In this document: piece by piece, positions 45,487 through 62,001 of the stretch
Numbering within the stretch: the stretch's first letter is position 1
How the letters are laid out: every line of letters begins with the position of its first letter
Assembly (NCBI RefSeq): GCF_029360705.1
Contig: NZ_JARKMX010000002.1
Coordinates: forward strand, 496,001 to 560,000
From: Paraflavitalea pollutisoli
GTDB lineage: Bacteria; Bacteroidota; Bacteroidia; Chitinophagales; Chitinophagaceae
Direction: 5' to 3'
DNA length: 64,000 bases
Position numbers and translations under genes: made by a program
Notes under the pieces: model-generated
Database searches by the model: none
Told to the model about the DNA's origin: nothing
The model's input: the letters and a program-made list of their open reading frames with translations, nothing else

Positions 45487-45491
45487 AAAAC

Positions 45492-45520: not shown

Positions 45521-45541
45521 GTAATTTAGCTAACTTATCCA

Positions 45542-47053
45542 TTAATACCCAGGATTCTGGGCAAGATTTGGATTGACCGATAACTGCTGATTGGGAATGG
45601 GGAACAATAGGTTCTTTGGGTCGTCTGTTGGCTTTTCCTGCCAGGGCTGCAGGTATTTACCAAAACGGATCAGGTCATTGCGGCGCATACCTTCCCAATA
45701 GAATTCGCGGCCTCTTTCGTCGAGCATCTGATCGAGGCTGACAGAAGCCAGAGCTGCGATACCACGCTTAGTACGGATAGAGTTGACGATGGTAAGGGCA
45801 GCGGCCGCGTTGCTGGTTCTCAGCAGCGCTTCGGCTTTCATCATCAACACATCGGCATACCGGTAATAAACATAGTCGTTGTTGGCATTATCGCCTGAAT
45901 TGTAATCGATGGGATATTTGATCACGCGGATACCGGTCACTTCCAGGTTTTGTCCGATCTCGATGGCTTTTACTTCGGGGGTGAAGGCCAGCGGACGGCC
46001 ACCACGGTCCTTCAGCGCGACGCCATTCTGGTCAAACTGCTGACCCACCAGGAATCCGGGCTTGATACCACTGACGTTGGTGACACCAGGGTAGCTCTGG
46101 CTTCTGCGCAGATCTGCCGCATCGAACTTATTGTAGAAGTCAGACAGCGTTGTAAAGCCGTTCCAGCCACTGGGGTTGTTGTTGTAATGCAAGGTACAGA
46201 ACCAGCGGGAGCGTACAGGGCCGCTATTGGAACCTCCGATATTCTGTGCAGTAAAAATGTTCTCCGTAGAGATCGCATCGTTGTTGGGCGCAAAATTATC
46301 AAAGTAATTATCAGCCAGTTTATACTTGGTACTGTTGATGATCTGGTCGGCCAGGGTGATCACCTGTTGCATGTCTGCCGCTGCAAAGGTGGGTGTTGCT
46401 CTGTTGGCGATCACCCCTTTGTTGATATAACATTTCATGAGCAGCACACGGGCAGCGTCTTTATTGGCCGTATACGCCGGACCAGCCGGCAGGTCGTTCA
46501 TGATCGCATTGACCTCGGAAATGATGAAATCGAGCGCTTCACTGCCTTTGCGCACCTTGGGTACATCGAGAATGCTGGTACCGGGATCGCGGTAAGGCAC
46601 CTGGTTCCATCCATCGAGCATGGAGAAGGTAGCGAAAGCGCGGATGAACCTGGCTTCTGCGGCCTGTGCGGCCGATGGATTGTAGCGCAGGAAGTCTGTA
46701 GCAGAGTAAATGATACCACCCAGGTCTTCAAAAGTCTGGCGCAGGAAGAGGTGATTACCATCCCAGCGGTGTACGTGCAGTACCCGCCATACACCATTAT
46801 CGTCCCAGTCGCCACCGCGTGTGGGTCCGATCGCTTCATCGGAGGTATGCTCCTGGGCAGCCCAGAAACGGCTTTGATCCTGGTAGGGGGTTCGCATGGC
46901 ATCATAGACACCTTTCAGCAAGGCAGCCGTATTGGCGGATCCACCACCCACTGCGCTGCCGGGCACTTCTCCATTCAGCTTTTCCTCCAGCCGGGTGCAG
47001 GCAACCAGCGTAAGGGAAAGGGACATACCGTAGAGCAATCGTATATATTTCAT
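45542..47053 (-). CDS. SusD/RagB family nutrient-binding lipoprotein (downstream unit)
   Basis: A 503-residue surface lipoprotein that works with SusC to capture nutrients. The signal ends in a lipobox (LTLVACTRLEE). The SusD TPR-like fold is shown by AEARFIRAFATFSMLDGWNQVPYRD (about 112-136) and the C-terminal YVYYRYADVLMMKAEALL and RGREFYWEGMRRNDLIRFGKY. The ligand is not known. It begins 12 bases after its susC. Confidence 0.95.
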   Translation of the reverse strand: MKYIRLLYGMSLSLTLVACTRLEEKLNGEVPGSAVGGGSANTAALLKGVYDAMRTPYQDQSRFWAAQEHTSDEAIGPTRGGDWDDNGVWRVLHVHRWDGNHLFLRQTFEDLGGIIYSATDFLRYNPSAAQAAEARFIRAFATFSMLDGWNQVPYRDPGTSILDVPKVRKGSEALDFIISEVNAIMNDLPAGPAYTANKDAARVLLMKCYINKGVIANRATPTFAAADMQQVITLADQIINSTKYKLADNYFDNFAPNNDAISTENIFTAQNIGGSNSGPVRSRWFCTLHYNNNPSGWNGFTTLSDFYNKFDAADLRRSQSYPGVTNVSGIKPGFLVGQQFDQNGVALKDRGGRPLAFTPEVKAIEIGQNLEVTGIRVIKYPIDYNSGDNANNDYVYYRYADVLMMKAEALLRTSNAAAALTIVNSIRTKRGIAALASVSLDQMLDERGREFYWEGMRRNDLIRFGKYLQPWQEKPTDDPKNLLFPIPNQQLSVNPNLAQNPGY

Positions 47054-47065
47054 AAAATGCTTTTG

Positions 47066-50056
47066 TTATTGTAGTGAAAATTTAACACCGACCTGGAAGG
47101 AACGGGCAGAAGGGTAAGGCGTGTACTCGATACCCACGGAAGGTACACCGTTTACCTGCTTATCCGTATTGACTTCCGGATCGAACCCGGTGAAATCGGT
47201 CATCACCAACAGGTTCTGACCGGCCACAAATACTGTCAGCGCTTTCAATGACTTGCCGATATTGCCGATCTCATAAGAAACACTTGCGTTGGCCAGCTTG
47301 AGGTAGCTGCCATTTTCCATATACCGGGAAGAAGGCGTGATACGGTTGGAGAGTGACTCTTTCACTTCCCCACCGATCAGTGACCGGGCAACATTTCTAC
47401 CACCATTCAGGTTGCTGATTGGCAACACTGTATTGGCTGTGTTGTTGTATACCTTTTGACCAAAGGCGCCGTTGAAGTTGACTACGCCGGATAGTTTCTT
47501 GTACCGGGCAGACATAGTAACACCCAGCACCGTCTTAGGATTGGGGTTACCCAGGTAGTAGTTAACATAGCCGTCTTCGTCATACAAGGCCAGCCCTGTG
47601 GTTTTATCCAGGCCAAGGTACCTTGACATATAAAAGACATTGATTGGCTGGTCATTGGTAATTTGCTGTACCGTAGCACCTGATATACCTTGTCCGTGCA
47701 AAGCACCAGTAGGAATTGGTACATCGAGATTGGTAACATTGTTTTTGACAAAGGAAGCGATCACGCCCAGATCCCAGGATACATCTTTTGTTCGCACGAG
47801 ATTGGCATTGAGGGTTACTTCCACACCCTTGTTGATGATCTCAGCCGGCAGGTTCTTCCAGGTAGGCGGTGCACCAGGTGGCACAGGCTGTGCAGAAATT
47901 GTAGGATATAGCAGGTCCGTTGTTTTTTTGTTGAAATAGTCAACCGAACCGGTGATCCTGTTGTTCATGACCGCGAAATCGATACCGATATTGGTTTGCT
48001 CATCGGCTTGCCATTTCAGGTCGGGATTGGCGCTATTGGCGGGTTGTACTGCACCAGGTCCGGTAAACCGGTACCTGTCCTGGGCCGAACCAGCCGGCAC
48101 ATCCTGTGTACCCGTTTTACCCCAGCCAACCCTGAGCCGCAGGTTATTGATGAACTCTACATTTTTAAGGAATTCTTCATTGCTGGCATTCCAGGCTACA
48201 GCGAATGAAGGGAAGTATCCATAGCGGTTGTTCTTACCGAATTTGGTAGATCCATCTGCGCGGATCGTGGCGGTAAGCAGGTATTTATCTTTCCAGTTGA
48301 TATTGCCGCGGGCAAAATAAGATTGTAGCTCCGTAGTAGGATCAACCGTAGAAGACAACTGACGGGTGCTTTGTGAACTGTACTGGAAGTAATTATAGTA
48401 AGGGATACCATAGTTGCCAAAATCGCTGGCACTGTTGTCGTTCGCTTTGAAGTCGAACTTCATGTACTCATAACCCACCAGCGCGCCGAGGGTAAAATCG
48501 GGCGATAGCTTCTTGGTATAGTTCAGCGTGTTGGTCCACTGTTTGGTGATCAGCTCATTGCTGCCGGTATAGGCTACACCACGGTCAACGATATTCTCCA
48601 GGTTGATGAAGGAAGCAATCTGTGCACGACGGATACCGGTGCTGTAGTTGATACTGAACAGCATCCTGTACTCGAGGTCTTTGAACAACTTCACATAAGG
48701 AGAAATGCTTCCCAGCACGGTAGTTACCTTCGAGTTGTCGTCGTACGCTTCCGACATCGCCAGTGGATTGACGGTCGTTGAGCCACGCAGTACGTTTAAT
48801 GAATCCTGTCCATTCGCTTTCTTCACTACCAGCGGCATGGTAGGATTCCACTGAAGTGCCTGACCGATCACACTGCCTGTAAAGCCTGCATCATTGGACA
48901 CGGGCGCAATAGCTTCTACTGTTTGCGCGGCTATCAGGTTGTAGTCGATACCAATAGCTTTGCTTTCAAGGAACTTGAAACCACCGGCAATGTTGGTAGA
49001 GTATTTCTTAAATCCTGATTTGCGTACGATACCTTCCTGATCGAGGTAACCGGCGCCCATGCGATAGCGGGAATTTTCCGTGCCACCACTGATACTCATA
49101 TCGTAACTCTGGGTATAGGCCGTCCGCAACACAGCATCCATCGCATCGACGTTGCCGCCGAAATCACCGCTGGTCAGTCCGTAGTCCGTTAACGCTTTGC
49201 GGTACTCATTACCATCCAGTACTTTCAACTGTTTGATCAATTTACTCATACCAAAAAAAGTGTTGAAATACGCCTTCGTTGGTCCCGACTCCCCTTTTTT
49301 GGTATTGATGATGACCACACCGTAGGCACCGCGCGAACCGTAGATGGCGGTCGCGGAGGCGTCTTTTAATACATCGATCGACGCAATGTCATTGGAGTTG
49401 ATAAAGTTGAGCGGATTCGCAGCCGGCGATGTTCCGATACCGGCACCTGAGCCACCGGGTCGGGCAGATCGGCCATCCAATGGTACGCCATCTACTACAT
49501 ACAACGGGTTACTGCCCGCCCGGATGGTTGAGTTACCGCGGATCTTCACCGTGGTACCGCCACCAGGCTGGCCGCTGTTGTTAAGGATCTGTACACCGGC
49601 CACTTTACCCTGGATCAATTGATCGGGAGAGATCTGTACGCCCTGGTTAAAGTCTTTGGCTTTTACAGAAGCTACGGCACCGGTGGCGTCCTTACGCCTA
49701 ACGGTACCGCCATAGCCGATGACCACAATCTCGTTGAGCGTGGCATTGTTCGCTTCGAGCGATACATTGACCTGTAATTTGTCGGTGATGTCGACTTCCT
49801 GTGTAGCGTAGCCTACCGTGGAAATGACTAAGGTGTTTACGGCGCCTGTAATGCTGATTCGAAAGGTGCCATCGGAACCGGTGGATGTTCCTCGTGTAGA
49901 TCCTTTAGGGACTACTGATGCGCCAACAACGGGCGATTGATCTTTTGAGTCTGTCACTTTTCCTACAACGATCTTTTCCTGGGCGAAACTGGCAATATGT
50001 ATGCATAGGGCCATCAATAGCAAGGTTGATGACGCAAGCAATCGTTTTGCTGTCAT
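47066..50056 (-). CDS. SusC/RagA TonB-dependent outer-membrane transporter (downstream unit)
   Basis: A 996-residue outer-membrane beta-barrel transporter. Signal peptide (to about residue 25), carboxypeptidase-D-like domain (VVGKVTDSKDQSPVVGASV, about 31-105), TonB-box-like NEIVVIGYGGTVRRKD, plug domain with NPLYVVDGVPLDGRSARPGG, then the barrel, ending in SFQVGVKFSLQ with a terminal Gln rather than Phe. The ligand is unknown. It starts a second transcription unit with its own promoter and a 17-bp dyad identical in form to that upstream of the other susC. Confidence 0.96.
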   Translation of the reverse strand: MTAKRLLASSTLLLMALCIHIASFAQEKIVVGKVTDSKDQSPVVGASVVPKGSTRGTSTGSDGTFRISITGAVNTLVISTVGYATQEVDITDKLQVNVSLEANNATLNEIVVIGYGGTVRRKDATGAVASVKAKDFNQGVQISPDQLIQGKVAGVQILNNSGQPGGGTTVKIRGNSTIRAGSNPLYVVDGVPLDGRSARPGGSGAGIGTSPAANPLNFINSNDIASIDVLKDASATAIYGSRGAYGVVIINTKKGESGPTKAYFNTFFGMSKLIKQLKVLDGNEYRKALTDYGLTSGDFGGNVDAMDAVLRTAYTQSYDMSISGGTENSRYRMGAGYLDQEGIVRKSGFKKYSTNIAGGFKFLESKAIGIDYNLIAAQTVEAIAPVSNDAGFTGSVIGQALQWNPTMPLVVKKANGQDSLNVLRGSTTVNPLAMSEAYDDNSKVTTVLGSISPYVKLFKDLEYRMLFSINYSTGIRRAQIASFINLENIVDRGVAYTGSNELITKQWTNTLNYTKKLSPDFTLGALVGYEYMKFDFKANDNSASDFGNYGIPYYNYFQYSSQSTRQLSSTVDPTTELQSYFARGNINWKDKYLLTATIRADGSTKFGKNNRYGYFPSFAVAWNASNEEFLKNVEFINNLRLRVGWGKTGTQDVPAGSAQDRYRFTGPGAVQPANSANPDLKWQADEQTNIGIDFAVMNNRITGSVDYFNKKTTDLLYPTISAQPVPPGAPPTWKNLPAEIINKGVEVTLNANLVRTKDVSWDLGVIASFVKNNVTNLDVPIPTGALHGQGISGATVQQITNDQPINVFYMSRYLGLDKTTGLALYDEDGYVNYYLGNPNPKTVLGVTMSARYKKLSGVVNFNGAFGQKVYNNTANTVLPISNLNGGRNVARSLIGGEVKESLSNRITPSSRYMENGSYLKLANASVSYEIGNIGKSLKALTVFVAGQNLLVMTDFTGFDPEVNTDKQVNGVPSVGIEYTPYPSARSFQVGVKFSLQ

Positions 50057-50097: not shown

Positions 50098-50143
50098 CGT
50101 GTAGCTTATACACAATTTAAAGCAATGGCCTGGTATTACCAAA
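50098..50143 (-). promoter_or_regulatory. Promoter and 17-bp operator of the downstream susC
   Basis: On the minus strand: TTTG (50140-50143), 19 bases, TTAAATTG as the -7 box (50113-50120), then the dyad TGTGTATAAGCTACACG (50098-50114), which overlaps the last bases of the -7 box and the expected transcription start. The dyad has the form TGTGTA-N5-TACACA with one outer mismatch. Same geometry as at 61953-62001. Confidence 0.7.
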
Positions 50144-50314
50144 AAATTAACACCAGTTTCATCACTGTACAGGATGGCGTATTGCTATTTTTACTATGCC
50201 CTTTTTCTCGACAAGAATATATCAATCAATCAACTATGCGTGATTGAATGTCCTGAAACGCAGGCCTGGTGCGGCCTAAAAAAAAGTTTGTGGTAAAGGA
50301 AAGCCCTTAGCTGG

Positions 50315-50348
50315 CACTAACACCCTACCCTTAGGGTATCCGTTAGTG
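50315..50348. other. Nested hairpin in the sus intergenic region
   Basis: Outer arms CACTAAC (50315-50321)/GTTAGTG (50342-50348) and inner ACCCTA (50322-50327)/TAGGGT (50332-50337). Could be a terminator or a binding site; no function assigned. Confidence 0.5.
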
Positions 50349-50411
50349 ATTTACCTTATTCAACGCATTGCCAGCGAAGGAGTTGCCCAGCTGTGGGGCT
50401 CCAATAACGAA

Positions 50412-50437
50412 GTATGCCTGCCGACTGGCAGGCATAC
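50412..50437 (-). terminator. Probable terminator after the Nudix regulator gene
   Basis: Perfect 11-bp stem GTATGCCTGCC (50412-50422)/GGCAGGCATAC (50427-50437), loop GACT, 32 bases past the stop codon. No T-run follows on the minus strand. Confidence 0.65.
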
Positions 50438-50468
50438 CTTATATAATACGGTCCATCATTAATGGTCG

Positions 50469-51194
50469 TTAATGGAGTTGTGCTTCCTGTACGTTCTCCT
50501 TCTTACCGTCGGAAAACCTGTCGGCATTGAATCGGTATAGTTTACCAGGACGATGGGGAACATCCTGCTCCAACTCATTTACGTCAATCAGCCAGTCCAT
50601 CAGGAAAAACTTCTTCCTGAAGTTACGGCGGTCGAGCTTGGTGCCGTGGATGGACTCATACAGGCTTTGCAATTCCCGCAGAGAGAATTTCTCCGGCAGT
50701 AAATTGAATACGATGGGATGTTCATCGATCTTCGACTGCAATTGCTTCAGGCAGGTATCCAATATCTTTTTGTGGTCGAAGGCGAGGGTGCTGATCTCAT
50801 TCACCGGATGCCAGTGAAGTTCATTGTGGGCCAGCGACAGCTGGTGATCTTTAATATTGATAAGCGAGTACCAGGCGGTAGTTATTACCCGGCCGGCCGG
50901 GTGGCGGTTCACATCTCCGAAAGTATACACCTGCTCGAGAAACACATCGTCGAGGCCCGTGCGGTCCTTCAGAACTCGGTAAGAGGCACTATCGAGATTC
51001 TCGTTGGGCATGACCAGGTCACCCAACAGCGACCACTCGTCATGAAACTCTTCGAGATCCGATTTGATCAGTAATACTTTGAGTTCATTATCGTCGAAAC
51101 CGAAGATCACGCAATCTACGGAAAGGGCCATGTGGAAGAATTCCCTATTGTCAGACTTCAACTGCTGTATCGTTTTCTGCAAGGCGTTCCCCAT
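50469..51194 (-). CDS. Nudix-domain transcriptional regulator (NrtR-like)
   Basis: A 241-residue protein with an N-terminal Nudix fold (about 22-150) and a C-terminal winged helix (about 160-225: FSLRELQSLYESIHGTKLDRRNFRKKFF, here shortened to its ends). The Nudix box, normally Gx5Ex7REUxEExGU, reads GDLVMPNENLDSASYRVLKDRTGL: the catalytic Glu residues are lost, so it should bind rather than hydrolyse a ligand. Nudix-type repressors and activators of sugar genes (for example arabinose in Bacteroides) are known. Its position after a GH13 amylase gene makes it the likely regulator of this locus, and it is the natural candidate to bind the dyads at 50098 and 61953. Confidence 0.85.
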   Translation of the reverse strand: MGNALQKTIQQLKSDNREFFHMALSVDCVIFGFDDNELKVLLIKSDLEEFHDEWSLLGDLVMPNENLDSASYRVLKDRTGLDDVFLEQVYTFGDVNRHPAGRVITTAWYSLINIKDHQLSLAHNELHWHPVNEISTLAFDHKKILDTCLKQLQSKIDEHPIVFNLLPEKFSLRELQSLYESIHGTKLDRRNFRKKFFLMDWLIDVNELEQDVPHRPGKLYRFNADRFSDGKKENVQEAQLH

Positions 51195-51220
51195 AATCTT
51201 GGTGTTATGATCGTTAAGGC

Positions 51221-54133
51221 TTAATTAATGATGATTTTCTTTACTATGCTGTTGTTTCCATATTGCATTCGAACGAAATAAAGACCTTTAGCAAGACCGA
51301 CGGCATCGAGTGTCTGCAAAGGCAGTTGATGGACACCCTGTGGCTTAAAACCAGCACGGTAGCTGGCAAGCTGTTGTCCGCTTATATTCAGCAAGGATAA
51401 GGTGACTTCCGTATTGAGCGGTAGTTCATATTCAATAGTAGAGTTCGACGAGACCGGATTGGGAAATATACTTAGCCGTGTATTCTTACGCTGGTTGTCC
51501 AGATCGGTTACGGGGGTAAGAATATTCGTGATGTTTCGGTTCAAATATACGTGATACTCGCCGGGTTGCAAGGAAATGCTTTGTGCAGCACCCGTTGCAT
51601 TGATGGTTTGCCCCGTCAGGTAGTCATACCAGGTACCGGCATTTTGAAAACTAACATTGCCCGTAACTCCGTTTACATCGAAATTTCCAACGACCAGTAT
51701 ATTAGACGTATCAGTAGTCAGCTTCAACCATTTGAAGGCGCCGGAAAGATCCCAGGTGATGCGATCGGTAACAAATCCGTTTCTATACGATGGATGCTTC
51801 CGCAAAGCCAGCATGACACTGTAGATGTCATGCAGCTTCTTTCGGTCGGCACTCTGCTGGTAATCCCAGCGCACCGGTTTGGGATTGGTACGGCAACTGT
51901 TGTCGATGGTACCATTCTCGCAATAATTAATGGAGTAGTCGTACCCCAGTTCTCCAAACTGCCAGATCATTTTAGGACCAGGAATGGAGAAGTAGAAGGC
52001 AGCCGCCATCGCATTGCGTTGCAGACCTGTCACGGGATCTTTGGTGCTATAGCCACCCGAAGCATTGCCAAATTGCCCATTTTTGTATTGGAGCCTTTCT
52101 TCATCATGGCTTTCCATATAGGCTACCAGGTTGGGCTGCGCCCATCCCCGCTCCCTGTGGATCGCCCCTTTGAAATCGGACGTGCCTACCCATCCCATGG
52201 TAGCTTCGTTGAAGGCATGGTTCATATTACCCCAAAGCATCATACCATAAGCAGCCAGTTCTTTCTCTTCGTCGTTCACCCCAAGGTGTTCGAGTATCAC
52301 ATAACTGCCTGCCGACTTCGCTTGCAGGGTATCATAGTATTTTTTCCAGATGGCTATCCGGCTGGCATCATAGGCATCCCAGCTCGCCTGGTTGCAATTT
52401 TCTCCATTGGCATCACAGGAGGCTTTTTGGGTGAAGCCTTTCGACAGGTCGAACCGGAAACCATCGAGCTTGTATTCCTGCAGCCAGTATTCTACCACCC
52501 GGCTCACAAAGTATTGCGTGGCGGCGCTTTCGTGGTTGAAATCGTAGCCCACGTTGAACGGGTGTTTGGCTGCGGTATTGAACCAGGGGTTTTGTGCCGT
52601 AGGTTGTCCTTTGGCAGCATCGAAGTAGAGCTGCACCATGGGCGACTGTCCGAAGGAATGGTTGAGCACCATATCCATGATCACCGCCATACCTTGTTTG
52701 TGACATTCGTCGATGAGCGCTTTGAGATCATTGGCCGGACCATAATATTTATCAGGCGCAAAATAGAAGGAAGTATTGTAGCCCCAGCTGAGGTTGCCTT
52801 CAAATTCATTGAAGGGCATCAGCTCAATGGCGTTGATTCCAAGCCGCTTGAGGTAGCCGAGGGTATCCTTCAAGGTCTTCCAGTCGTGGTTGCCAACAAA
52901 ATCGCGCAACAGCAACTCATAGATCAACAGGTTGCGTTTGTCGGGCCGTGCGAAATTGGTGGTCTGCCAGGCATAGGTTGGTTTGGCCGTCTGCAGTACA
53001 CTGACAATGCCGGTCGTTTTCCCCGTGGGGTAAGGCTTCAGGTTGGGATAGGTCGTTGCTGTGATGTACTGATCATTGTTGGGATCGAGCACCTTTTGCG
53101 TATAAGCATCAGGAATTTTCAGGCTGTTGTCGACCACGTACTGATATCCATATTCCGTACCCGGCGTAAGGCCCGTGATCCGTTTCCAGAAACGCAGCCC
53201 ATCCGGTGTTTTGTTGCATTGAAAGTTGACCGACTCGGTCCAGTTGTTGAAGTCTCCAATGATCGATACCTTGTTTTTGCCGGGCGCGTACAGTACCAGG
53301 ATGGCCGACGTATCGCCCTGTTCATAATTGATGCCGTCACGCACACCAGCCGGCAGCGGCTGTACATTGACGGTCGGGGCTGCGAAAAAGTTGATGGTAT
53401 CCGAATGGGTCGTGCTGCCATCGGTAACACGGCCAACGACCTGCTGGTTGCCGGCAACCGTGATCGCCGGAGTGGCCTGCACGGTCGTATTGCCGGTGGC
53501 AGTGGCTATCGCTGTGCCGTTGAAGAACACAGTAAGATCGGCCGACTTGTTGGATAAATAAGTGATGTCGATGTTTTCTCCCTGCACTTTGGTGATCGGT
53601 TCTGGCACCGGTACAAACCGGGGATCCATGGCCGGTGCAGCAAATTTACCGGTCAGGATATTGTCGTACACCGTGATGTACATATTGCCGTTGTCGACGC
53701 TTTGATCGCTGATGCGCTGTACCACATTTCCATTACCACTCCTGAACAGGATCGCGATGCGGCGAATGGTTTCGCCTGCTGGCACATTGAAGAAGCTGCG
53801 GATATTGCCGATGGTGTACTGGTATTTGTTGGTAGCTATCCAGGTGGCTTTGGCTGCGGCGTCTGCCGTACCCCAGGTAAACTTTGCATACCGCCAATCG
53901 CCATTGTTGCTGCTTTGGCTCGTGATCAACCCGATGTGCACGTAGACATCGTTGGTGTTGGCATAGTTGAGCAGCCCCTGGTTACCTTTACTACAATCGA
54001 CCGTGATGGTAACCCCTGCATTATCGGTAGGAAAAGCAGGCGCGGTGGTCAACAATTGGGCACTGGCTGTTGCACAGTACGCCACCATCATCAGGGTAAG
54101 TACAAATAACCTCATCGGCAATCGTTTTATCAT
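51221..54133 (-). CDS. T9SS-exported GH13 alpha-amylase family enzyme with CBM48
   Basis: A 970-residue secreted alpha-glucan hydrolase. The start is the ATG of MIKRLPMRLFVLTL (54131-54133), a signal peptide ending near ASAQ. A beta-sandwich region (about 20-250) leads to a CBM48 (about 270-345, VSIIGDFNNWTESVNF). The GH13 barrel spans about 400-800: VIMDMVLNH, the nucleophile Asp in LDGFRFDLSKG (about 560), the acid Glu in VILEHLG (about 616) and the stabilising Asp in ESHDEER (about 676). The last about 80 residues (SIFPNPVSSNSTIEYELP...VKKIIIN) are a T9SS sorting domain. It should cleave starch or maltodextrins outside the cell and feed the SusC/D pair encoded upstream. Confidence 0.93.
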   Translation of the reverse strand: MIKRLPMRLFVLTLMMVAYCATASAQLLTTAPAFPTDNAGVTITVDCSKGNQGLLNYANTNDVYVHIGLITSQSSNNGDWRYAKFTWGTADAAAKATWIATNKYQYTIGNIRSFFNVPAGETIRRIAILFRSGNGNVVQRISDQSVDNGNMYITVYDNILTGKFAAPAMDPRFVPVPEPITKVQGENIDITYLSNKSADLTVFFNGTAIATATGNTTVQATPAITVAGNQQVVGRVTDGSTTHSDTINFFAAPTVNVQPLPAGVRDGINYEQGDTSAILVLYAPGKNKVSIIGDFNNWTESVNFQCNKTPDGLRFWKRITGLTPGTEYGYQYVVDNSLKIPDAYTQKVLDPNNDQYITATTYPNLKPYPTGKTTGIVSVLQTAKPTYAWQTTNFARPDKRNLLIYELLLRDFVGNHDWKTLKDTLGYLKRLGINAIELMPFNEFEGNLSWGYNTSFYFAPDKYYGPANDLKALIDECHKQGMAVIMDMVLNHSFGQSPMVQLYFDAAKGQPTAQNPWFNTAAKHPFNVGYDFNHESAATQYFVSRVVEYWLQEYKLDGFRFDLSKGFTQKASCDANGENCNQASWDAYDASRIAIWKKYYDTLQAKSAGSYVILEHLGVNDEEKELAAYGMMLWGNMNHAFNEATMGWVGTSDFKGAIHRERGWAQPNLVAYMESHDEERLQYKNGQFGNASGGYSTKDPVTGLQRNAMAAAFYFSIPGPKMIWQFGELGYDYSINYCENGTIDNSCRTNPKPVRWDYQQSADRKKLHDIYSVMLALRKHPSYRNGFVTDRITWDLSGAFKWLKLTTDTSNILVVGNFDVNGVTGNVSFQNAGTWYDYLTGQTINATGAAQSISLQPGEYHVYLNRNITNILTPVTDLDNQRKNTRLSIFPNPVSSNSTIEYELPLNTEVTLSLLNISGQQLASYRAGFKPQGVHQLPLQTLDAVGLAKGLYFVRMQYGNNSIVKKIIIN

Positions 54134-54154
54134 TCTCAAAAGGGTGGGCGGGAA

Positions 54155-54259
54155 ATGGGGCTGACTAAAAAGGGTACCCATTCTCGGGTAGGCGATGGAG
54201 ACAAGCGATCGTTTACATGATCCTCCTGGTCTTCATGAACCTTTTTTGGTCAGCCCCAT
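54155..54259 (-). other. Long inverted repeat between the SusE/F-like and amylase genes
   Basis: Arms ATGGGGCTGACTAAAAAGGG (54155-54174) and its near-complement ending GGTCAGCCCCAT (54240-54259); about 65 bases lie between them. It lies wholly in the 142-base gap and may slow or partly end transcription before the amylase gene. Confidence 0.6.
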
Positions 54260-54275
54260 GTTTTAACGTTGTAGT

Positions 54276-56093
54276 CTATTGAATAACGACCGTACCGTTC
54301 AGCTCATCGAGCGTCACCTTATAAGTGCCGCTGGTGGCCGGAGTACTGAAGTTGGTGCTGCCATCATACCTGATCTTGCCACTGCCTGCATCTTCGTAGT
54401 CGAACGCACCCCAGGCATTGCCAGCCAGGAATTTGATTTCCTTGCCACCTACCAGATTGAGCGAAAGTTCCCACTTGCCATTGCCGAGGTAGGTCATCTT
54501 GGGTGAGTTGCCTGGATCCCAGTCGGGCACACCCGCCATGCCGTTACCCACGATGCGCATTTCGGTAGCAGCGCTCAGGTTATAGGTGAGGTTCTTTACA
54601 TCTGTGCCATCAAAGATCACGCGCACCAGACCGGCTGTGCCTGTCCACTTCACATTCTTGGCACCACCGCCGTCTACGATCAGTTTGCTGCCGCCTTCTG
54701 TTTCGGGGCCAAACCAACGGGCCTTGTTATTGGCGCCATTGTCCCATTCGCTGCCGTCGTGGAATTTAAATTCATCATTGGCCGACATCGTCTGGAAGAC
54801 GATGAGCTTGTTCGGTGCCAGGCTGCTCATGCGAACATTGCTGGCGGGTGTCCAGCCCGGTGTCTGGAAGGCACCAACGATGCCCAGTCCACCGATACCA
54901 CCACTGGCTGCTGTTTGCACATAATATTTCTTATTCGAATAGTCGAACGTTACCCGGTAAACACCCGAGGTAGCTACCGCAATATTCGACTCGCCATTGT
55001 CGGTGATCGTGCCGGCTGCGCCATTGGGATCCTGGCCCCAATCGATGATACCCGGTGCGGGTGGCCATTGCTGACCATTCACGAATTTGAATTCTCCACC
55101 GCCGGTAAGGTTGACGTAGGTGAAGAAAGTGCCGGGGAACCTTGGATCGGGGATCAGGCGCGAGGCATTTTCAATGGTCCAGCCTGCAGGGGTAGCGCTT
55201 CCCACGATAAATACCTTGATCTCACGCAGGATCACGACCTGGTTTACGTATTCGGCATACTGGCTCCAGCTACCGGAAGTAGCGACTACGGTCCACAGCA
55301 GGTCTACCGGCTGCTCCTGGTTGGTAAACCCTTTCTTCGTGAGCGAATCGCCGATGGCCTTGTAAGTAATATTGGCTACAGAATCGGCTCCACTGTTGTC
55401 TGCGTCTACCGCTATCAGCGGCTTCGTCCAATCAACGGCGATCACCGCGCCTGTGGCATCCACTTTCCTTTCTGCAAACAGTACTTTATACTTCATGGCC
55501 GGACCACCCGTAGCGGGTTTGGATTTGGTCCAGTTGAATTTCATCGTTTGGGAAGTGCTATTGGGATCGATGGCCGTTACATCACCGCTGGTAGCGGGGC
55601 CCAGCAAAATGAATGCTGTGGCACCATCTTTCATGCGGGTGATGGAAATATTCCTGGTTTCTGTAGCCAACAGGTTGGTAGAACCATTGTCGGCTTTCAC
55701 GCTCCAGATAAGATCCGTTTTGGCGCCGTCTGCAATGCCTTTGCCTTTCAGGGCGTCGTCGAGTTGTTTGTGGGTAAGGGTGAGTTTTGCATCCTTACCG
55801 CTGTTGTTGGAGGCGATCTCCAGCAAGGGCGTTTCGAGCGTGCCATTCGTTTTCAGGGCAGCCACCCATTTGTAGGTGGGCAGTACGTCTACGCCGGGTT
55901 TGGCGGCCGACCAGCTGATTTCCACGGTTGAGCCGGGCGTTGCCGCATTGAGCGCAACCACCGCATCGGCCACGGGAGCATTCAGCGTGAAGGTGCCCAG
56001 GGATTCGCCGGTCACCGTTTCGTCGAAATCCGTTTTCTGACATCCTGCCAAAGCGGCGATCGCCAGCAAAGCAGGAACCAATATCTTTTTCAT
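54276..56093 (-). CDS. SusE/SusF-like starch-binding outer-membrane lipoprotein
   Basis: A 605-residue surface lipoprotein. The start is the ATG of MKKILVPALLAIAALAG (56091-56093), with lipobox ALAGC. Two SusE-type N-terminal Ig-like domains (about 20-280; ATPGSTVEISWSAAKPGVD) are followed by three repeated carbohydrate-binding modules of SusE/SusF type (about 285-605), each with a GxFxxPGW/FxG pattern such as IVGAFQTPGWTPASNVRM and VGNGMAGVPDWDPGNSPKM. In the Bacteroides starch system SusE and SusF hold starch on the cell surface. Position after susCD and before the amylase gene supports this role. Confidence 0.9.
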   Translation of the reverse strand: MKKILVPALLAIAALAGCQKTDFDETVTGESLGTFTLNAPVADAVVALNAATPGSTVEISWSAAKPGVDVLPTYKWVAALKTNGTLETPLLEIASNNSGKDAKLTLTHKQLDDALKGKGIADGAKTDLIWSVKADNGSTNLLATETRNISITRMKDGATAFILLGPATSGDVTAIDPNSTSQTMKFNWTKSKPATGGPAMKYKVLFAERKVDATGAVIAVDWTKPLIAVDADNSGADSVANITYKAIGDSLTKKGFTNQEQPVDLLWTVVATSGSWSQYAEYVNQVVILREIKVFIVGSATPAGWTIENASRLIPDPRFPGTFFTYVNLTGGGEFKFVNGQQWPPAPGIIDWGQDPNGAAGTITDNGESNIAVATSGVYRVTFDYSNKKYYVQTAASGGIGGLGIVGAFQTPGWTPASNVRMSSLAPNKLIVFQTMSANDEFKFHDGSEWDNGANNKARWFGPETEGGSKLIVDGGGAKNVKWTGTAGLVRVIFDGTDVKNLTYNLSAATEMRIVGNGMAGVPDWDPGNSPKMTYLGNGKWELSLNLVGGKEIKFLAGNAWGAFDYEDAGSGKIRYDGSTNFSTPATSGTYKVTLDELNGTVVIQ

Positions 56094-56126
56094 ACGCAAC
56101 ATCATTATTAATGTTTAGAGTGAAGG

Positions 56127-56921
56127 CTATTTCATGTCTGCTAATGTCACTTCCACCACATTGGTGCTTACGGTGACGGGTTGGTTGTTGGCATCCTGTA
56201 CCGTGCCATTGAACTTGTACGTAAAGCGGGTAAATTTCTTACCGGCGCCAGGCGTATAGGAACGGGTAGGGATGAAATAGGCCTTCCATAGTTTAGTACC
56301 TGCATTTTTTACAGGGAGTGTCACTGGCTGACCAGCAGCGGCGCCGGTATTGTCAAATACTTCTATAGTGACCGTCGTTGGCTGCATACGCTGCTCATTG
56401 GGCGTGGTGGCAAGGTCCTGGTGGAAGTAGAGCGATACCACATCATTTTGTCCTACGCGGGCCGGGAACAAACGCAGCATGCTCGGCACAAACACCAGCG
56501 GATCGAATACATTCTTCTTACTATCGGGCGACTGCTTGCTGCCACTCTTTGTTTTAGCGAGGAACTGAAAATGTTTGAGCTGGCCGGGTGCCAGACCATA
56601 CATGGTGGTACCCGTCATCTTGTAGGTAAACTTATTGGGCGTGGCTTCTACCGGGGTCAGTTTGGCGGCTGCCGGTGAATTGCCCCATTCCGTATTGGTG
56701 CTACCGTCTTTGCCCGGAAAACCAACGGCGTCTTTGTTGGCCCAGGTCCAGATATACAGATCGGTTTCGCCGGCCAGGTTGGTACCGGTGAAATCGAAGG
56801 TGATGGTGATCTCATCTTCTGCCGAGAAAGTGGCGGGGCTGATGGTGAAGTTGGTGAACTCCTGCGCCTGCACCATGCGGCCGGTCAATATCATGAGTGC
56901 TATAATCAATAACTTTTTCAT
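56127..56921 (-). CDS. Secreted protein of the sus locus, unknown
   Basis: A 264-residue protein with a signal peptide ending VQAQ. The rest looks like two beta-sandwich (Ig-like) domains; the first includes FTNFTISPATFSAEDEITITF. No lipobox and no T9SS signal are seen, so it may stay in the periplasm. I do not recognise a named family. It lies between a DUF5004 lipoprotein gene and the SusE/F-like gene, 18 and 33 bases from them, so it is part of the operon and is likely to bind alpha-glucan or to assist the surface proteins. Confidence 0.6.
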   Translation of the reverse strand: MKKLLIIALMILTGRMVQAQEFTNFTISPATFSAEDEITITFDFTGTNLAGETDLYIWTWANKDAVGFPGKDGSTNTEWGNSPAAAKLTPVEATPNKFTYKMTGTTMYGLAPGQLKHFQFLAKTKSGSKQSPDSKKNVFDPLVFVPSMLRLFPARVGQNDVVSLYFHQDLATTPNEQRMQPTTVTIEVFDNTGAAAGQPVTLPVKNAGTKLWKAYFIPTRSYTPGAGKKFTRFTYKFNGTVQDANNQPVTVSTNVVEVTLADMK

Positions 56922-56939
56922 AATTGCTGCATTGAAGGG

Positions 56940-57440
56940 TTAGCGGGAAAATTCATAATCATACACAATGAGCACCTTATTGGTAGCGGCGTCACTGCGG
57001 GTCACTTTCACCTTCAGTGTTTGATTCACACTGTTGGGGTATCCTCCCAGCGTCATGATCTCCGTGACCGCACCACTCTTGAGGGTGATGGTCTTGGGTG
57101 CCTTGGGATCATCGATGCTCCAGGTACCGGAAGTGATACTGGTGATGGGCGGCGCCGTATCATTGTTGATGGTAAAGTTGCCGGGCGCTCCTGCAGTCGC
57201 ATTCAGCGTCATTTGCAGGGTGCTGTAGGCAAACAGCGTGGTGATGTCCTCTACCGCATAAGGGAAGCCCTTGCGTTGTGATTCGAAATCGGTTTGCGTA
57301 ACCTTCGTCAGTTTCCACACGCCGGCAATGGCGGTGAGGTTATCGTTTGTATCGCCGAGCGGCGCAAAGCCTTCGGGCCGGCAGCCATTCATGGCCAGCA
57401 CAGCGAGAAGCAATATCGAGAGCAAATATGTTGATCGCAT
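56940..57440 (-). CDS. DUF5004/lipocalin-like lipoprotein
   Basis: A 166-residue lipoprotein. The start chosen is the ATG of MRSTYLLSILLL (57438-57440), because the longer frame would overlap susD; the lipobox is AMNGC. The mature part has the lipocalin-like beta pattern of DUF5004 with IAGVWKLTKVTQTDFES, and SGTWSIDDPKAPKTITL. Proteins of this type are frequent in Bacteroidota sus-type loci but their role is not known. It lies 22 bases after susD. Confidence 0.7.
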   Translation of the reverse strand: MRSTYLLSILLLAVLAMNGCRPEGFAPLGDTNDNLTAIAGVWKLTKVTQTDFESQRKGFPYAVEDITTLFAYSTLQMTLNATAGAPGNFTINNDTAPPITSITSGTWSIDDPKAPKTITLKSGAVTEIMTLGGYPNSVNQTLKVKVTRSDAATNKVLIVYDYEFSR

Positions 57441-57462
57441 GTTATTAGGTTGAATGTGTTTA

Positions 57463-58845
57463 TTAATCGCAACCACCTTCTGTATTCATCTTAAAGGATG
57501 CATTGGCAGCCTGTTCGCTGATGGGGAATTGCAACGCGAGGCCAGGACAGTTCCAGCGACCTCCACGGCGATCCACATTCGTACCCGAGCGGGCACCGAT
57601 GCGTTTGATCTCCTGGATACGGTTGCCTTCGCCAATCAGTTCCAACTCACGCTCCCGGCGGGTAGTGCTGATCACGGTAGCCACTACCGCATTGGTCGCA
57701 AGGTTTTTGGAGGTGCCTCCATAAGCGCGGGTCAGAATCTCGTTGATATCCGTGATGGCCGTTGCCAGGTTGGCGGCGCCTGTTTCAGCGCCTGCTTCAG
57801 CACGAATCAACTTGATCTCGGTAAAGCCGATCAGCGGCATATCGAAGTTGTTCTTGTTGTATTTGGTCAACACATTGTAACCAGGCACCAGTGTTTTGCT
57901 GTACCAGGCCGTGCCGCGTACATCGCCCGCCGTAGTGGCTGCCGTGTAAAAGATATCCGTAATGTGGAACCGGCCCTGTGCGCTAAATCCTACATCACTG
58001 CGGTAACGGTTCCGGAGTTCAGAACCGGGATACAGGTTGTTGTCAATGAACTTGAAGCCAAAGATGATCTCCTTCGACAGGCCGATCGAGAACCGGTTGG
58101 CATAGGAGGCATCATATTGAAACTTGTTGCTCTTGATCACCTGATCAGCATACGTGAAGGCGTTCGCAAAATCATTCTGCAAGAAATATACACGGGCCAG
58201 ATAGGCTTTGGCTGCCCACTTGCTGGGAGAGCCCAGCGTTACCTGGTCGCCCAACAGGTCATCGGCCTTTTTGAGATCGGCAATGATCGACTCATAGACT
58301 TCCTTCACGGTATTGCGTTCGCCAGGTGTGATGGCTGTTTGAAGACGCAGTACAATGCCAGGATGACTGTTATCGGCCGTAAAACCCCAGGGTTGTGCCC
58401 ACATGCGCACGGCGTCGAAATGTGATAAGGCACGGAGGAAATAAGCCTGTCCTTCGATGCTGTTGCGGGAAGTAGTGGCTTTTTCGATATTGGCGAGTAC
58501 ATTGTTGCCAACATAGGCCGGGCGATACAGATCGGTGTACATCCCGTTCTTATAGTCGCCGAAGATGGAGGTTTTACGTTTGAAAATCTCCCCATCATCA
58601 CCCGTATACAGAGAACCATTGGCCTGGTCGCCGAGCAGGTCTTCGATCCAGGTATATTTACCGTTTTGTACTTTATTGCTGTAGTCTGAATAAGATCCGT
58701 TTAAGAGGGCCTGCAGGTCGGCGTCATTCTTTATCGCCTCTTCTTCGGTCAGGGCGCCTTCCGGCTTTCTGTCGAGAAATTTATTACAGGAGGTGGCTGT
58801 CATGACCGCGCATCCCAACAACGCTATATAGATCGCTTTTTTCAT
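57463..58845 (-). CDS. SusD/RagB family nutrient-binding lipoprotein (upstream unit)
   Basis: A 460-residue surface lipoprotein. The start chosen is MKKAIYIALLGCAVM (58843-58845), with lipobox ATSC. The SusD pattern is clear: IEGQAYFLRALSHFDAVRMWAQPWG (shortened here to its start and end) near residue 130, and the C-terminal RRERELELIGEGNRIQEIKRIG. With the GH13 amylase and SusE/F-like genes downstream, the likely ligand is a starch fragment. It begins 19 bases after susC. Confidence 0.95.
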   Translation of the reverse strand: MKKAIYIALLGCAVMTATSCNKFLDRKPEGALTEEEAIKNDADLQALLNGSYSDYSNKVQNGKYTWIEDLLGDQANGSLYTGDDGEIFKRKTSIFGDYKNGMYTDLYRPAYVGNNVLANIEKATTSRNSIEGQAYFLRALSHFDAVRMWAQPWGFTADNSHPGIVLRLQTAITPGERNTVKEVYESIIADLKKADDLLGDQVTLGSPSKWAAKAYLARVYFLQNDFANAFTYADQVIKSNKFQYDASYANRFSIGLSKEIIFGFKFIDNNLYPGSELRNRYRSDVGFSAQGRFHITDIFYTAATTAGDVRGTAWYSKTLVPGYNVLTKYNKNNFDMPLIGFTEIKLIRAEAGAETGAANLATAITDINEILTRAYGGTSKNLATNAVVATVISTTRRERELELIGEGNRIQEIKRIGARSGTNVDRRGGRWNCPGLALQFPISEQAANASFKMNTEGGCD

Positions 58846-58864
58846 TGTGTCGAGCATTTATGAA

Positions 58865-61800
58865 TTAGAAATTAACATTGATCCCTATCACCCATGATTT
58901 CTGTTGCGGCGGGGTGAGGTAGGTAATGTTGGGACTGAGGTTGCGGTCGGTGGGATTCTCAAAGTCTCGGGCAATTTCCGGATCACCACCAGGATACTTG
59001 GAGAAGGTGAGCAGGTTCATACCAGTGATAAATACGCGGGCTCCTTTGAGGTGAAGGTTGGTAAGCGTTTTGGCGCTGAAGCGATAACCCAGCGACAGTT
59101 CACGCAGACGCAGGTAAGACGCGTCGTACAGAAACATGGTGCTGTTGTATTGCCATTCGCTGCTCAATCCTGCATAGGTGCCGGTATTCATGGTGAGGCG
59201 GGGATACTTGGTCACATCGCCTGGCTCTCTCCAACGATCAAGCTGGTCTTTACGGATCACCCAATCAGTGATCACCCCTGCCTGTCTTTTGCCAGAACCG
59301 TCGTAGATATTACCACCGATGGTGAATACCCACAAGCTGGAAAATTCAAATCCTTTATAGGTCAGGTTGTGGTTGAAGCCACCGATAAAGTCGGGTACCA
59401 CTGAGCCTACCGGCATACGGTTGTCGAGGCTGAAGGTTTTGGTGAGCTTACCGGTTTTATCATACCAGATCGGCAAGCCGTCATTGGGATCTACACCATA
59501 ATAACGCACGAGGTAGTTGGTACCGATCGGATATCCTTCTACCACACGGGTATCGTTGCTACCACCGCCGGCGGCATCGGCACTCAAACCACCCAGGCTC
59601 ACGAGCTCGTTATAGTTCTTGGCGATGTTACCACCCACGCTGAAAGTAACTTCTTTGTTGTTGATGACTTTGTAGTTCGCGCTGAACTCGATACCCTGGT
59701 TCAGTATCTCGCTGCCCTCGATGTTGCGGTAGCCGCTACCAAAGCTGGTAGAAGGAGATACCGCAGTATTCAGCAACAGGTCGGTAGTTTTCTTATGGTA
59801 GTATGCTACTTCACCTGTCAGCCTGTTGTTGAGGGCCGCAAACTCGATCGCAAAATCGGTGTTGGCGGTCTCTTCCCAATGCAGATCGGGGTTGGCTACG
59901 TTGCTCGGATAAAGCGTCGCGCCACCATTGTATTGGTTGGTGCCGGCGAAATACATGGAATAGTATTGGCCGGAGGGGAATCCAGAGTTACCGGTGAGAC
60001 CGTAGCTGGCGCGCAGTTTCAGGAAGTTGATGAAGCGAATATCCTTCATGAAATCTTCCTGGCTGATGGTCCAGCCGGCGGATACCGTGGGGAATACACC
60101 GTATTTTTTATTGGGACCGAATTTGGAGGACCCGTCACGACGAATAGAGGCTTGCAGGGCATAGCGCTCTTTGTAGATATAGTTTACTCGTCCAAATACG
60201 CTGGCAAATGTTTCTGCATTGTAATCGGGCCCTGTAAGCGGTGTACCGGTTTGCTTGATGGAATCAAGCGCGTGATCGTACAGTGACTTGTTCTTATAGA
60301 AAGGACGGTCGCTGTTCTTTTCAACGTATACGCGGTTCACAAAGCTCTTTTCCTGGAATTCGGTACCCGCGAGGAAGGTAAAGCGGTGATCGTCATTCAG
60401 GGTCCAGTTGTAGGTAGCTGTTGCAGAAGCCACCCAGTTTCTGCCGCGGTAAGGAGAACGTTTGGCGATACCGGGTTTGCTATTGTCGTTGATCCAGTTG
60501 GAAGACTCCCACTGATCGTCGATGCCGGTCAGGTAATCGTACGATCCATTCACGCGCACGTTCAGGTTCTTGATCACTTCATAATCGAGCATCAAACCAC
60601 CGATCAGGCGGTTGTCGGTATTTCTCCAGACGGTTTCATTCAAGCGACGAACCGGATTCGCACCACCGGTAAACCAGGTCTTGTCGTCGTTGTAGATGGG
60701 GTAAATGGGCAGGGCCGTGCTCATCGCATCACCCAGGCCACCGGCCCAGGCTGCAGGAACCCTTTTATTGATACCCCGGTTGTAGGCTGCACTGAGGGTG
60801 GCCTTGAACTTGGGGGTGATGGTAAAGTCGAAGTTGGTACGAAGGCCGTAGCGGGTGTAGCTGTTGTTCTTCAGGTAGCTTTGGTTTTCTCCGTAGGTGG
60901 CACCGATAAAACTCTTGACGAACTTGTTGCCCTGCGTCATGCTTAGACTGTGTTCGTTGATGAAACCGGTGCGGGTGAGCTCATCCCACCAATTGGTATT
61001 GTTCTTTTGCGCCTGCTCCCAGGTAAGGCCACCGGGCAGGGGGGCTTTGCCTGTGTTGCCGTCATTCTCCCAGGCTTCCTGGCGCAATTGCAACCACTCC
61101 TGGCCGCTGACAAAGTCGGGTTTGTTGGCGTAGGTAGAGATACCAATCTTATTGTTGTAGTTGAACGTAGGCTGTCCGTTCTTACCCCGCTTGGTGGTAA
61201 TGAGGATGACCCCATTCGAACCGCGGCTACCGTAGATTCCGGCAGCTGCCGCATCTTTCAGTATCTCGATCGATTCGATGTCGTTGGGGTTGAGGGAGGC
61301 GAGGGGATTCTGGTTCATACCGCCGCTGTTGCTGCGGAGGAATGCATCGGCTATCACCGGTATGCCGTCGATCACATAGAGTGGATCGGCGCCGGCACTG
61401 ATGGAGGCGATACCGCGGATGCGGATCACCGAGCCGGAACCGGCCAGGCCGCTACCTTGTATAACCTGCACGCCGGGCGCCTTTCCCTGCAGGGCCGCTT
61501 CAAACGAAGGCGCTGCGATGGAAGTGAGTTTTTCAGCCGACACTTTGGTAATGGCGCCGGTCACATCTTTACGACGTTGGGTGCCGTAGCCGATCACCAC
61601 GACCTCATTGAGGTTGGCGGAGGTAGATTTAAGTGCGACGAGGATCACGTCGGCCGCGATGGCGACATCCTGTGATTCGAAGCCTACGCCGGAAATAGTT
61701 AAAGTGGTGGTGGAGGAAGGAACGGCGAGGGAGAAACTGCCGTCTGCTTTAGTAGATGTTCCTGCTTTGGAACCTTTAACGGTAACCGAGGCACCGGGTA

Positions 61801-61921
61801 CCGGCGAGCCATTGCTGGCATCGGTAATCTTACCGGTAACGGTTTTGCTCTGTGCCCAGCTGAAAACGGGTATGCACAGGAGGAGCATAAGGATCCCCAC
61901 AAGCGATCGTTTCGGCATCAT
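58865..61921 (-). CDS. SusC/RagA TonB-dependent outer-membrane transporter (upstream unit)
   Basis: A 1018-residue outer-membrane transporter; the adjacent second ATG at 61918 is an equally good start. Signal peptide to about residue 24, carboxypeptidase-D-like domain (VTGKITDASNGSPVPGASV), TonB-box-like NEVVVIGYGTQRRKD, plug domain with DPLYVIDGIPVIADAF and the barrel, ending in WVIGINVNF with a terminal Phe. The start is preceded by a Bacteroidota promoter with two copies of the 17-bp dyad. It opens a seven-gene transcription unit that should import malto-oligosaccharides. Confidence 0.96.
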   Translation of the reverse strand: MMPKRSLVGILMLLLCIPVFSWAQSKTVTGKITDASNGSPVPGASVTVKGSKAGTSTKADGSFSLAVPSSTTTLTISGVGFESQDVAIAADVILVALKSTSANLNEVVVIGYGTQRRKDVTGAITKVSAEKLTSIAAPSFEAALQGKAPGVQVIQGSGLAGSGSVIRIRGIASISAGADPLYVIDGIPVIADAFLRSNSGGMNQNPLASLNPNDIESIEILKDAAAAGIYGSRGSNGVILITTKRGKNGQPTFNYNNKIGISTYANKPDFVSGQEWLQLRQEAWENDGNTGKAPLPGGLTWEQAQKNNTNWWDELTRTGFINEHSLSMTQGNKFVKSFIGATYGENQSYLKNNSYTRYGLRTNFDFTITPKFKATLSAAYNRGINKRVPAAWAGGLGDAMSTALPIYPIYNDDKTWFTGGANPVRRLNETVWRNTDNRLIGGLMLDYEVIKNLNVRVNGSYDYLTGIDDQWESSNWINDNSKPGIAKRSPYRGRNWVASATATYNWTLNDDHRFTFLAGTEFQEKSFVNRVYVEKNSDRPFYKNKSLYDHALDSIKQTGTPLTGPDYNAETFASVFGRVNYIYKERYALQASIRRDGSSKFGPNKKYGVFPTVSAGWTISQEDFMKDIRFINFLKLRASYGLTGNSGFPSGQYYSMYFAGTNQYNGGATLYPSNVANPDLHWEETANTDFAIEFAALNNRLTGEVAYYHKKTTDLLLNTAVSPSTSFGSGYRNIEGSEILNQGIEFSANYKVINNKEVTFSVGGNIAKNYNELVSLGGLSADAAGGGSNDTRVVEGYPIGTNYLVRYYGVDPNDGLPIWYDKTGKLTKTFSLDNRMPVGSVVPDFIGGFNHNLTYKGFEFSSLWVFTIGGNIYDGSGKRQAGVITDWVIRKDQLDRWREPGDVTKYPRLTMNTGTYAGLSSEWQYNSTMFLYDASYLRLRELSLGYRFSAKTLTNLHLKGARVFITGMNLLTFSKYPGGDPEIARDFENPTDRNLSPNITYLTPPQQKSWVIGINVNF

Positions 61922-61952
61922 AATACAAGCTTTCGTTTAGGTGTGTAAATAA

Positions 61953-62001
61953 TGTGTATCTGCTACACAAATATAATGTGTTCATGATACACACTACCAA
62001 A
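61953..62001 (-). promoter_or_regulatory. Promoter and two 17-bp operators of the upstream susC
   Basis: On the minus strand: TTTG (61998-62001), 22 bases, TATATTTG (61968-61975). Dyad A, TGTGTAGCAGATACACA (61953-61969), starts in the last two bases of the -7 box; dyad B, TGTGTATCATGAACACA (61977-61993), lies between the -33 and -7 boxes. Dyad centres are 24 bases apart. Arms of dyad A are perfect (TGTGTA/TACACA). Confidence 0.75.

Follow-up and report, generated by a model that had tools for sequence, protein, structure and literature searches.

A candidate AraR-like Nudix regulator and its predicted operator at two susC promoters of Paraflavitalea pollutisoli

The stretch of Paraflavitalea pollutisoli DNA analysed here (64,000 nucleotides, hereafter the window, to which all plain coordinates refer) carries two neighbouring gene sets that each begin with a susC gene, and a gene for a Nudix-type regulator is encoded between their promoters. 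An initial annotation of the window proposed that the two promoters share a 17-base-pair (bp) operator, TGTGTA-N5-TACACA, and that one repressor-like protein controls both transcription units, which would serve one nutrient. From the sequence comparisons described below, we consider it very probable that an AraR-like repressor of the NrtR family, devoted to starch or maltodextrin, blocks both susC promoters through the dyad TGTGT-N7-ACACA.

The two susC units and their dyads

All genes of both predicted units lie on the minus strand. The upstream unit opens with a gene for a SusC-like TonB-dependent transporter (58865-61921), and this is followed by genes for a SusD-like protein (57463-58857), a DUF5004 protein with a lipocalin-like match below the cut-off (56940-57476), a small protein that matches DUF4961 weakly and likewise below the cut-off (56127-56921), a SusE/SusF-like outer-membrane protein (54276-56105), and a GH13 alpha-amylase-type enzyme with a sorting domain of the type IX secretion system (51221-54181). 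Gene order agrees with the earlier proposal that the Nudix open reading frame (ORF; 50469-51194) is the last gene of this unit. Its product is assigned, on the basis of Pfam and PDB matches, to the AraR-like branch of the NrtR family (Nudix plus winged helix, with a degenerate Nudix box), and its nearest solved relative is BtAraR of Bacteroides thetaiotaomicron (PDB 5bs6, E 5e-53). The downstream unit consists of genes for a SusC/RagA-family transporter (47066-50056), a SusD-like protein (45542-47053), an FG-GAP/ASPIC-UnbV protein (42172-45501), and a TPR protein that is probably encoded by its last gene (41073-42107).

A scan of the window places operator 1 of the upstream susC promoter at 61953-61969 (TGTGTATCTGCTACACA), where TGTGTA-N5-TACACA is matched exactly, as it also is in the same-genus genome G085 (locus L165). 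Operator 2 of this promoter is located 24 bp away at 61977-61993 (TGTGTTCATGATACACA), upstream of the -7 box. The initial annotation gave this second copy as exact as well, but it carries a single inner mismatch that leaves the TGTGT-N7-ACACA core intact. The tandem pair recurs in G085 with the same 24-bp step (positions 4973 and 4997 of L165), and there both copies are exact. The operator of the downstream susC promoter, at 50098-50114 (CGTGTAGCTTATACACA, or TGTGTATAAGCTACACG on the minus strand), lies approximately 41 bp before the start codon and has the single outer mismatch first described for it.

One further copy with one mismatch is present at 3360-3376, inside ORF 3118-3804 (minus strand, GTG start), and hence the statement that non-coding sequence of the window contains no other copy holds for zero or one mismatch provided that this putative gene is real. 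When up to two mismatches are allowed, the window contains six matches, with 2.02 expected and six reached by 2 of 100 shuffles. Taken alone, the window makes a modest case for the dyad over chance.

On the minus strand, the -7 box of the upstream promoter is TATATTTG (TATATT/TG), and its last two bases are the first two of the dyad at 61953-61969. The same overlap had been claimed for both promoters. It is exact at the upstream promoter, whereas the downstream box, TTAAATTG (TTAAAT/TG), is a poor one with two mismatches to TAnnTTTG. This overlap is found at 19 of 61 oriented sites (offset -6), compared with 7.6 expected and a value of 19 reached in none of 500 flank shuffles; on the opposite strand, 8 of the 61 sites show the same offset. 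Given that the commonest arrangement places the operator over the -7 box, the geometry fits repression. We consider it unlikely that the regulator is instead an activator or a dual regulator. Some sites are positioned as an activator might require, upstream of the candidate -7 box (operator 2 of the window, and others at offsets of +15 to +34), but at the commonest offsets (-6, -11 and -12) the operator overlaps the -7 box or the start region, and BtAraR is described as being released from DNA by its sugar (PMC4666351).

According to the initial annotation, absence of the dyad before orthologous susC genes that keep the Nudix gene would speak against its proposal. We compared 21 loci (the window, L165 and L241-L259), and in 17 of them the next gene downstream of the one for the Nudix protein is, from its length and N-terminus, SusC-like. 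A dyad precedes this gene at all 17 places, 20-48 bp before the start codon, with no mismatch in seven, one in nine and two in one. Many of these loci are from Niastella, and the 17 are therefore not independent. The variant seen at 50098 recurs in L241 (Paraflavitalea), in L242 and in L165. In the remaining four loci (L244-L247), no SusC operon accompanies the Nudix gene downstream, and in L244 and L245, which are long stretches lacking an adjoining SusC-like gene, the best match to the dyad has four mismatches. A fortuitous origin of the downstream site, with its one mismatch, is ruled out by this comparison. The second operon, whose operator is conserved in the L241-L259 set, carries an FG-GAP/ASPIC-UnbV gene after susC and susD.

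Distribution of the dyad among genomes and the genes it adjoins

We searched 147 genomes of the family Chitinophagaceae for the Nudix protein and for the exact 17-mer, using the reversed 17-mer as a control. Orthologues were accepted at 57% identity or more, the next matches being at 51% (two genomes) and then at 45% or less. By this threshold, 93 of the genomes encode an orthologue, and together (416 Mb) they contain 194 exact 17-mers and 13 reversed controls, two of which overlap real sites. In the 54 genomes without an orthologue (213 Mb) the numbers are 13 and 5. Counted by genome, the exact 17-mer is present in 69 of 93 orthologue-positive and 10 of 54 negative genomes (Fisher p 5e-11, uncorrected for ancestry). 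A chance origin of the dyad, which the window alone does not strongly dismiss, is ruled out by these family counts.

Four of the 13 sites in orthologue-negative genomes fall in G043, where two precede a SusC-like and a GH77 gene. With the G043 assembly at 83% completeness, an orthologue may lie in the part that was not assembled. A separate draw comprised 296 Bacteroidota genomes. Those from outside the family (285) hold 31 sites and 51 controls, which is no excess, and the 10 that encode the orthologue (nine of them already among the 93) hold 30 sites and no controls; the one family genome lacking the orthologue has no site. The genome searches that the initial annotation had recommended support it, in that the dyad tracks the Nudix orthologue.

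To characterize these loci, we annotated the neighbours of 86 of the 194 exact sites (37 orthologue-positive genomes, 81 loci), assigning genes by BLAST to representatives and families by Pfam, such that one site can count twice. A total of 61 of the 86 sites adjoin genes for SusC-like proteins, GH13, GH77, GH97 or GH31 enzymes, GT35 alpha-glucan phosphorylases, major facilitator superfamily (MFS) transporters or the Nudix protein. An arabinose-type regulon is not what these neighbours describe, although arabinose genes were not specifically searched for. SusC-like genes are the most frequent neighbours (18), followed by those for MFS transporters (10), GH77 (10), GH13 of the type in the window (9), GT35 (5), another GH13 type (4), GH97 (3), Nudix (2), GH31 (2) and cyclomaltodextrinase-type GH13 (1); which sugar the MFS transporter carries can only be guessed from the adjoining genes. 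Neighbours of the alpha-glucan, SusC or Nudix kind are found at 3 of 13 reversed controls, two of which overlap a real site, and at none of six sites in orthologue-negative genomes. By our own ORF calls, 61 of 66 sites in orthologue-positive genomes and none of six in negative genomes are intergenic. Since a similar test scored 7 of 13 reversed controls as intergenic, position is a weaker argument than the identity of the neighbours.

The genome from which the window derives (8.76 Mb, 16 contigs) contains four exact 17-mers and no reversed control; with one mismatch allowed, the count of 16 is barely above that of the control (10). Three of the four exact copies precede alpha-glucan genes, namely the susC gene of the window, a GT35 phosphorylase gene (L013) and an MFS transporter gene (L008), after which comes a GH13 gene encoding cyclomaltodextrinase domains. 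The proposal that both units serve one nutrient has support where the upstream unit is concerned, as an alpha-glucan unit, and may also hold for the downstream SusC-SusD-UnbV-TPR unit. The fourth exact copy (C1:743; L321:743-759) is near a contig start, with no clear gene or tRNA adjoining it. A dyad with one mismatch on contig C15 (L012:8652-8668) lies between a SusC-like gene and a divergent gene for a TetR-type regulator, after which there is a sulfatase gene.

The Nudix protein as the candidate reader of the dyad

Three Pfam models match the product of 50469-51194 above their cut-offs (NrtR_WHD, 85.2 bits; AraR_C, 42.4 bits; NUDIX, 30.6 bits), and the domain order is that of the NrtR family, with an N-terminal Nudix-like domain and a C-terminal NrtR winged helix. 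The NCBIfam equivalog for the ADP-ribose repressor, or NrtR proper, gives 124 bits against a cut-off of 400. In a tree, a clade of the family (support 100/99) contains the protein and excludes BtAraR as well as two paralogues from its own genome, one AraR-like and one NrtR-like, although the placement of these excluded proteins, which form long rows, is unsure. The closest named relative is from Paraflavitalea sp. CAU 1676 (93%).

The Nudix box is defined as GX5EX7REUXEEXGU in PMC4666351. The corresponding segment of the window protein, DLVMPNENLDSASYRVLKDRTGL, has lost the glutamates of REUXEE and does not match the motif of an active hydrolase; because the box is broken, the domain should bind rather than cut its ligand. 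Two of the residues that contact arabinose in BtAraR, R86 and H131, are kept. In contrast, R34, F36, G48 and F49 are S, L, D and L in the window protein, and among orthologues the first is C in three, the second is I in one, and the fourth is L or I (F in one). These replacements suggest that the inducer is something other than arabinose, and the Nudix domain may thus offer a pocket for another sugar.

The operator crystallised with BtAraR is GCAAAAGTGTTACTTTTACACCCATGC, in which groove contacts define GTGT (PMC4666351). It holds GTGTTACTTTTACAC, which is GTGT-N7-ACAC and hence has the same geometry as the dyad. This spacing also dominates near the orthologues, as expected for a palindromic NrtR-family operator close to its own gene or targets: intergenic sequence of 36 orthologue loci (2.4-3.7 kb) contains 30 copies with N7 spacing in 23 loci, three with N5, one with N6, none with N8 or N9, and none of the reversed form. 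At 20 loci of more distant homologues there are 16 with N7 (14 loci), five with N9, one with N5 and, again, none reversed.

Four of the six residues that bond to bases in BtAraR are kept in the window protein (R180, N181, K184 and R205). The interface differs at K179 and at S163, which touches the outer base in BtAraR, both of which are R in the window protein. This R163 and R179 combination is present in all 35 family orthologues aligned, own genome included, and K179 is found in all 19 more distant homologues aligned. The outer base of the operator, which in the window and its relatives is mostly T, differs correspondingly. Beside R163/R179 orthologues it is T in 53 of 58 half-sites and on both sides of 25 of 29 sites; beside K179 homologues it is T in 9 of 30 half-sites and on both sides of none of 15 sites. 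(Two loci, L045 and L284, are absent from the tables of outer bases and residues because neither yielded a regulator gene call of the expected length.) The clustering of N7 sites at Nudix-regulator genes, the operator and residues of BtAraR, and the covariation of the outer base with the interface together point to the Nudix protein as the reader of the dyad. With the dyad tracking the orthologue and sharing the geometry of the BtAraR crystal operator, the proposal of one repressor-like protein for both units is supported.

The same observations bear on two other candidate readers. Another alpha-glucan regulator, for example a LacI-type MalR, could read the dyad while the Nudix gene is a passenger, and indeed a LacI-type gene directly follows that gene in G023 (L028, which is also L257) and in G025 (L032), and one is located near a TGTGT-N7-ACACA place in the own genome (L319). 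However, N7 sites cluster beside Nudix genes even in distant Bacteroidota, the spacing is that of the BtAraR operator, and the outer base differs together with residues of the Nudix interface. Moreover, LacI operators are usually CG-centred with even spacing. We consequently judge this explanation improbable.

Less probable still, to the point of being very remote, is that the AraR-like paralogue encoded on contig C15 binds the dyads and that the loci answer to arabinose. This paralogue is of the same family, its helix reads DKRNFSRK, and BtAraR recognizes the same GTGT core. Yet 28 of the 54 orthologue-negative family genomes have the paralogue only, and these hold eight sites and three controls, with four of the eight in the incomplete G043. 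Proteins of the K179 type are also more often found with A or G as outer bases. Furthermore, the paralogue gene adjoins genes for an arabinofuranosidase, a GH43 enzyme and SusD, and its 19-kb stretch contains no TGTGT-N7-ACACA and a single GTGT-N7-ACAC that is not before a gene. The own genome additionally encodes, near a nicotinate phosphoribosyltransferase gene, a separate NrtR-like protein whose Nudix box is intact. As binders of the dyad, the AraR-like and NrtR-like paralogues are both rejected on co-occurrence and on the outer base, although R179 occurs in the NrtR-like protein too and tempers the argument there.

Several observations weigh against assigning the dyad to an alpha-glucan repressor of this clade. 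The NrtR-like paralogue combines its R179 with A163, and the window protein does not keep two of the base-bonding residues of BtAraR (K179 is R, and K204 is H). Exceptions to the outer-base pattern exist at L265 (A, A), at L263 (A, T), and at the downstream sites of the own and same-genus genomes (C, T). No exact 17-mer is present in 24 of the 93 orthologue-positive genomes. Among 13 Nudix loci of such genomes (about 10 kb each), seven lack even the TGTGT-N7-ACACA core; the other six have it, always before SusC-like genes, and it is present in five of seven further loci represented by smaller stretches. The sites that were annotated form a non-random sample (long contigs, genus spread), and some loci were taken for their nearness to the Nudix gene. 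'SusC' among the neighbours means any SusC-like gene, and 25 of the 86 sites have no alpha-glucan, SusC or Nudix neighbour, or 20 after setting aside PfkA (4) and phosphoenolpyruvate (PEP) carboxykinase (1). Only 4 of 10 TGTGT-N7-ACACA places in the own genome are at alpha-glucan genes (control, 3). Its GH77 gene has only a site with three mismatches, and none of its six GH97 loci has a better one. Lastly, no recognisable alpha-glucan enzyme is encoded by the downstream unit (41073-50056), in which no glycosidase was seen.

At L265 (genome G257), an R163/R179 orthologue is flanked by AGTGT-N7-ACACT, contrary to the outer-base rule. The other site with three mismatches in the own genome precedes a neighbouring gene in a GH97 locus. 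The GH77 gene and the six GH97 genes are probably outside the regulon in this genome. Judging from the sites compared, the operator is best written as TGTGT-N7-ACACA, with the strict 17-mer being too narrow and the inner A/T pair preferred rather than required.

Proposed mechanism and relation to known regulators

With these points considered, we return to the alpha-glucan repressor as the preferred interpretation. A dimer of the Nudix protein would bind TGTGT-N7-ACACA through its winged helix. Two operators would cover the -7 region and the preceding stretch at the upstream susC promoter, and one would cover the -7 or start region at the downstream promoter, such that RNA polymerase is kept out while the alpha-glucan sugar is absent. 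A sugar or derivative from starch or maltodextrin would then occupy the Nudix pocket with its broken catalytic motif and, by analogy with BtAraR, swing the winged helices out of register and away from the DNA. Release would free both units and also the distant targets, which in the own genome would be the alpha-glucan phosphorylase gene and the transporter/GH13 pair. Feedback of the regulator on itself, which had been proposed initially, is plausible if its gene is co-transcribed with the upstream unit. The sites, their conservation and regulon-like distribution, the protein family and the interface residues were obtained here, and from them we infer binding, repression, the inducer class and this co-transcription.

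BtAraR (BT0354) provides the closest precedent. PMC4666351 describes a Nudix-like domain with a winged helix, a GTGT-N7-ACAC operator, tandem operators at the main target, SusC-SusD and glycosidase targets, and an unconserved Nudix motif, all of which resemble the system in the window. The window regulon differs in being one for alpha-glucans rather than arabinose. BtXylR (BT0791) likewise belongs to the NrtR family and has a predicted role in a sugar pathway of Bacteroidota, although the pathway is that of xylose, and its comparison with the window clade is by description only (PMC3878776 and PMC4666351). NrtR of NAD metabolism has the same domain order but is a weaker match to the window protein (PDB 3gz5/3gz6, E 4e-22). 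These two structures are presumably those of the Shewanella protein. NrtR also differs in binding ADP-ribose (PMC4666351).

Starch utilisation genes in B. thetaiotaomicron are regulated by SusR, which is, by the description in PMC3878776, a different kind of protein: a membrane protein and activator that uses direct-repeat sites 67 or 77 bp apart. Regulation of starch use in Bacteroidota has been described from SusR of gut Bacteroides, whereas Chitinophagaceae appear to rely on a sugar-sensing repressor of an unrelated kind to do this. Among the literature matches listed, none concerned a Nudix protein that regulates starch or maltose genes, with most subscription papers and RegPrecise outside the coverage. 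The AraR mechanism and this kind of regulator are already known, and what would be new is an alpha-glucan branch that is distinct in the edge of its operator, in its pocket and in its regulon. Given that the regulator, operator, targets and a solved template (BtAraR) are in hand, binding, inducer and specificity residues are directly testable, and the annotation is transferable to other members of the family through the orthologues of the 93 genomes.

A broader proposal is possible, although we regard it as speculative and as doubtful when taken as a whole. The clade might act as a family-wide master switch for alpha-glucans in Chitinophagaceae, filling the role played in Bacteroides by SusR, and in part of the family its control might extend to central carbon metabolism (pfkA and the region of PEP carboxykinase and the FAD-linked oxidase). 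In that case glucose, maltose, a phosphorylated sugar of glycolysis or some comparable general signal would serve as ligand, and the S163R and K179R changes would account for a shift from AGTGT to TGTGT.

Regarding central carbon metabolism, which the regulon may reach, four genomes from three genera have an exact dyad 30-81 bp ahead of a 6-phosphofructokinase gene (L150, L187, L211 and L227, from G146, G087, G104 and G066, respectively). In three of these four genomes, a divergent epimerase-like gene shares the pfkA promoter region. Another exact dyad of G066 (L226) lies between the genes for PEP carboxykinase and an FAD-linked oxidase. The gene for NAD-dependent DNA ligase (ligA) adjoins a dyad at six sites (L160, L168, L207, L216, L135 and L138), and in Niastella loci without the starch operon the Nudix gene is located next to ligA. 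Outside the family, an exact 17-mer is located 34 bp before a pyruvate kinase gene (L294) in G400, a genome that encodes several NrtR-family homologues.

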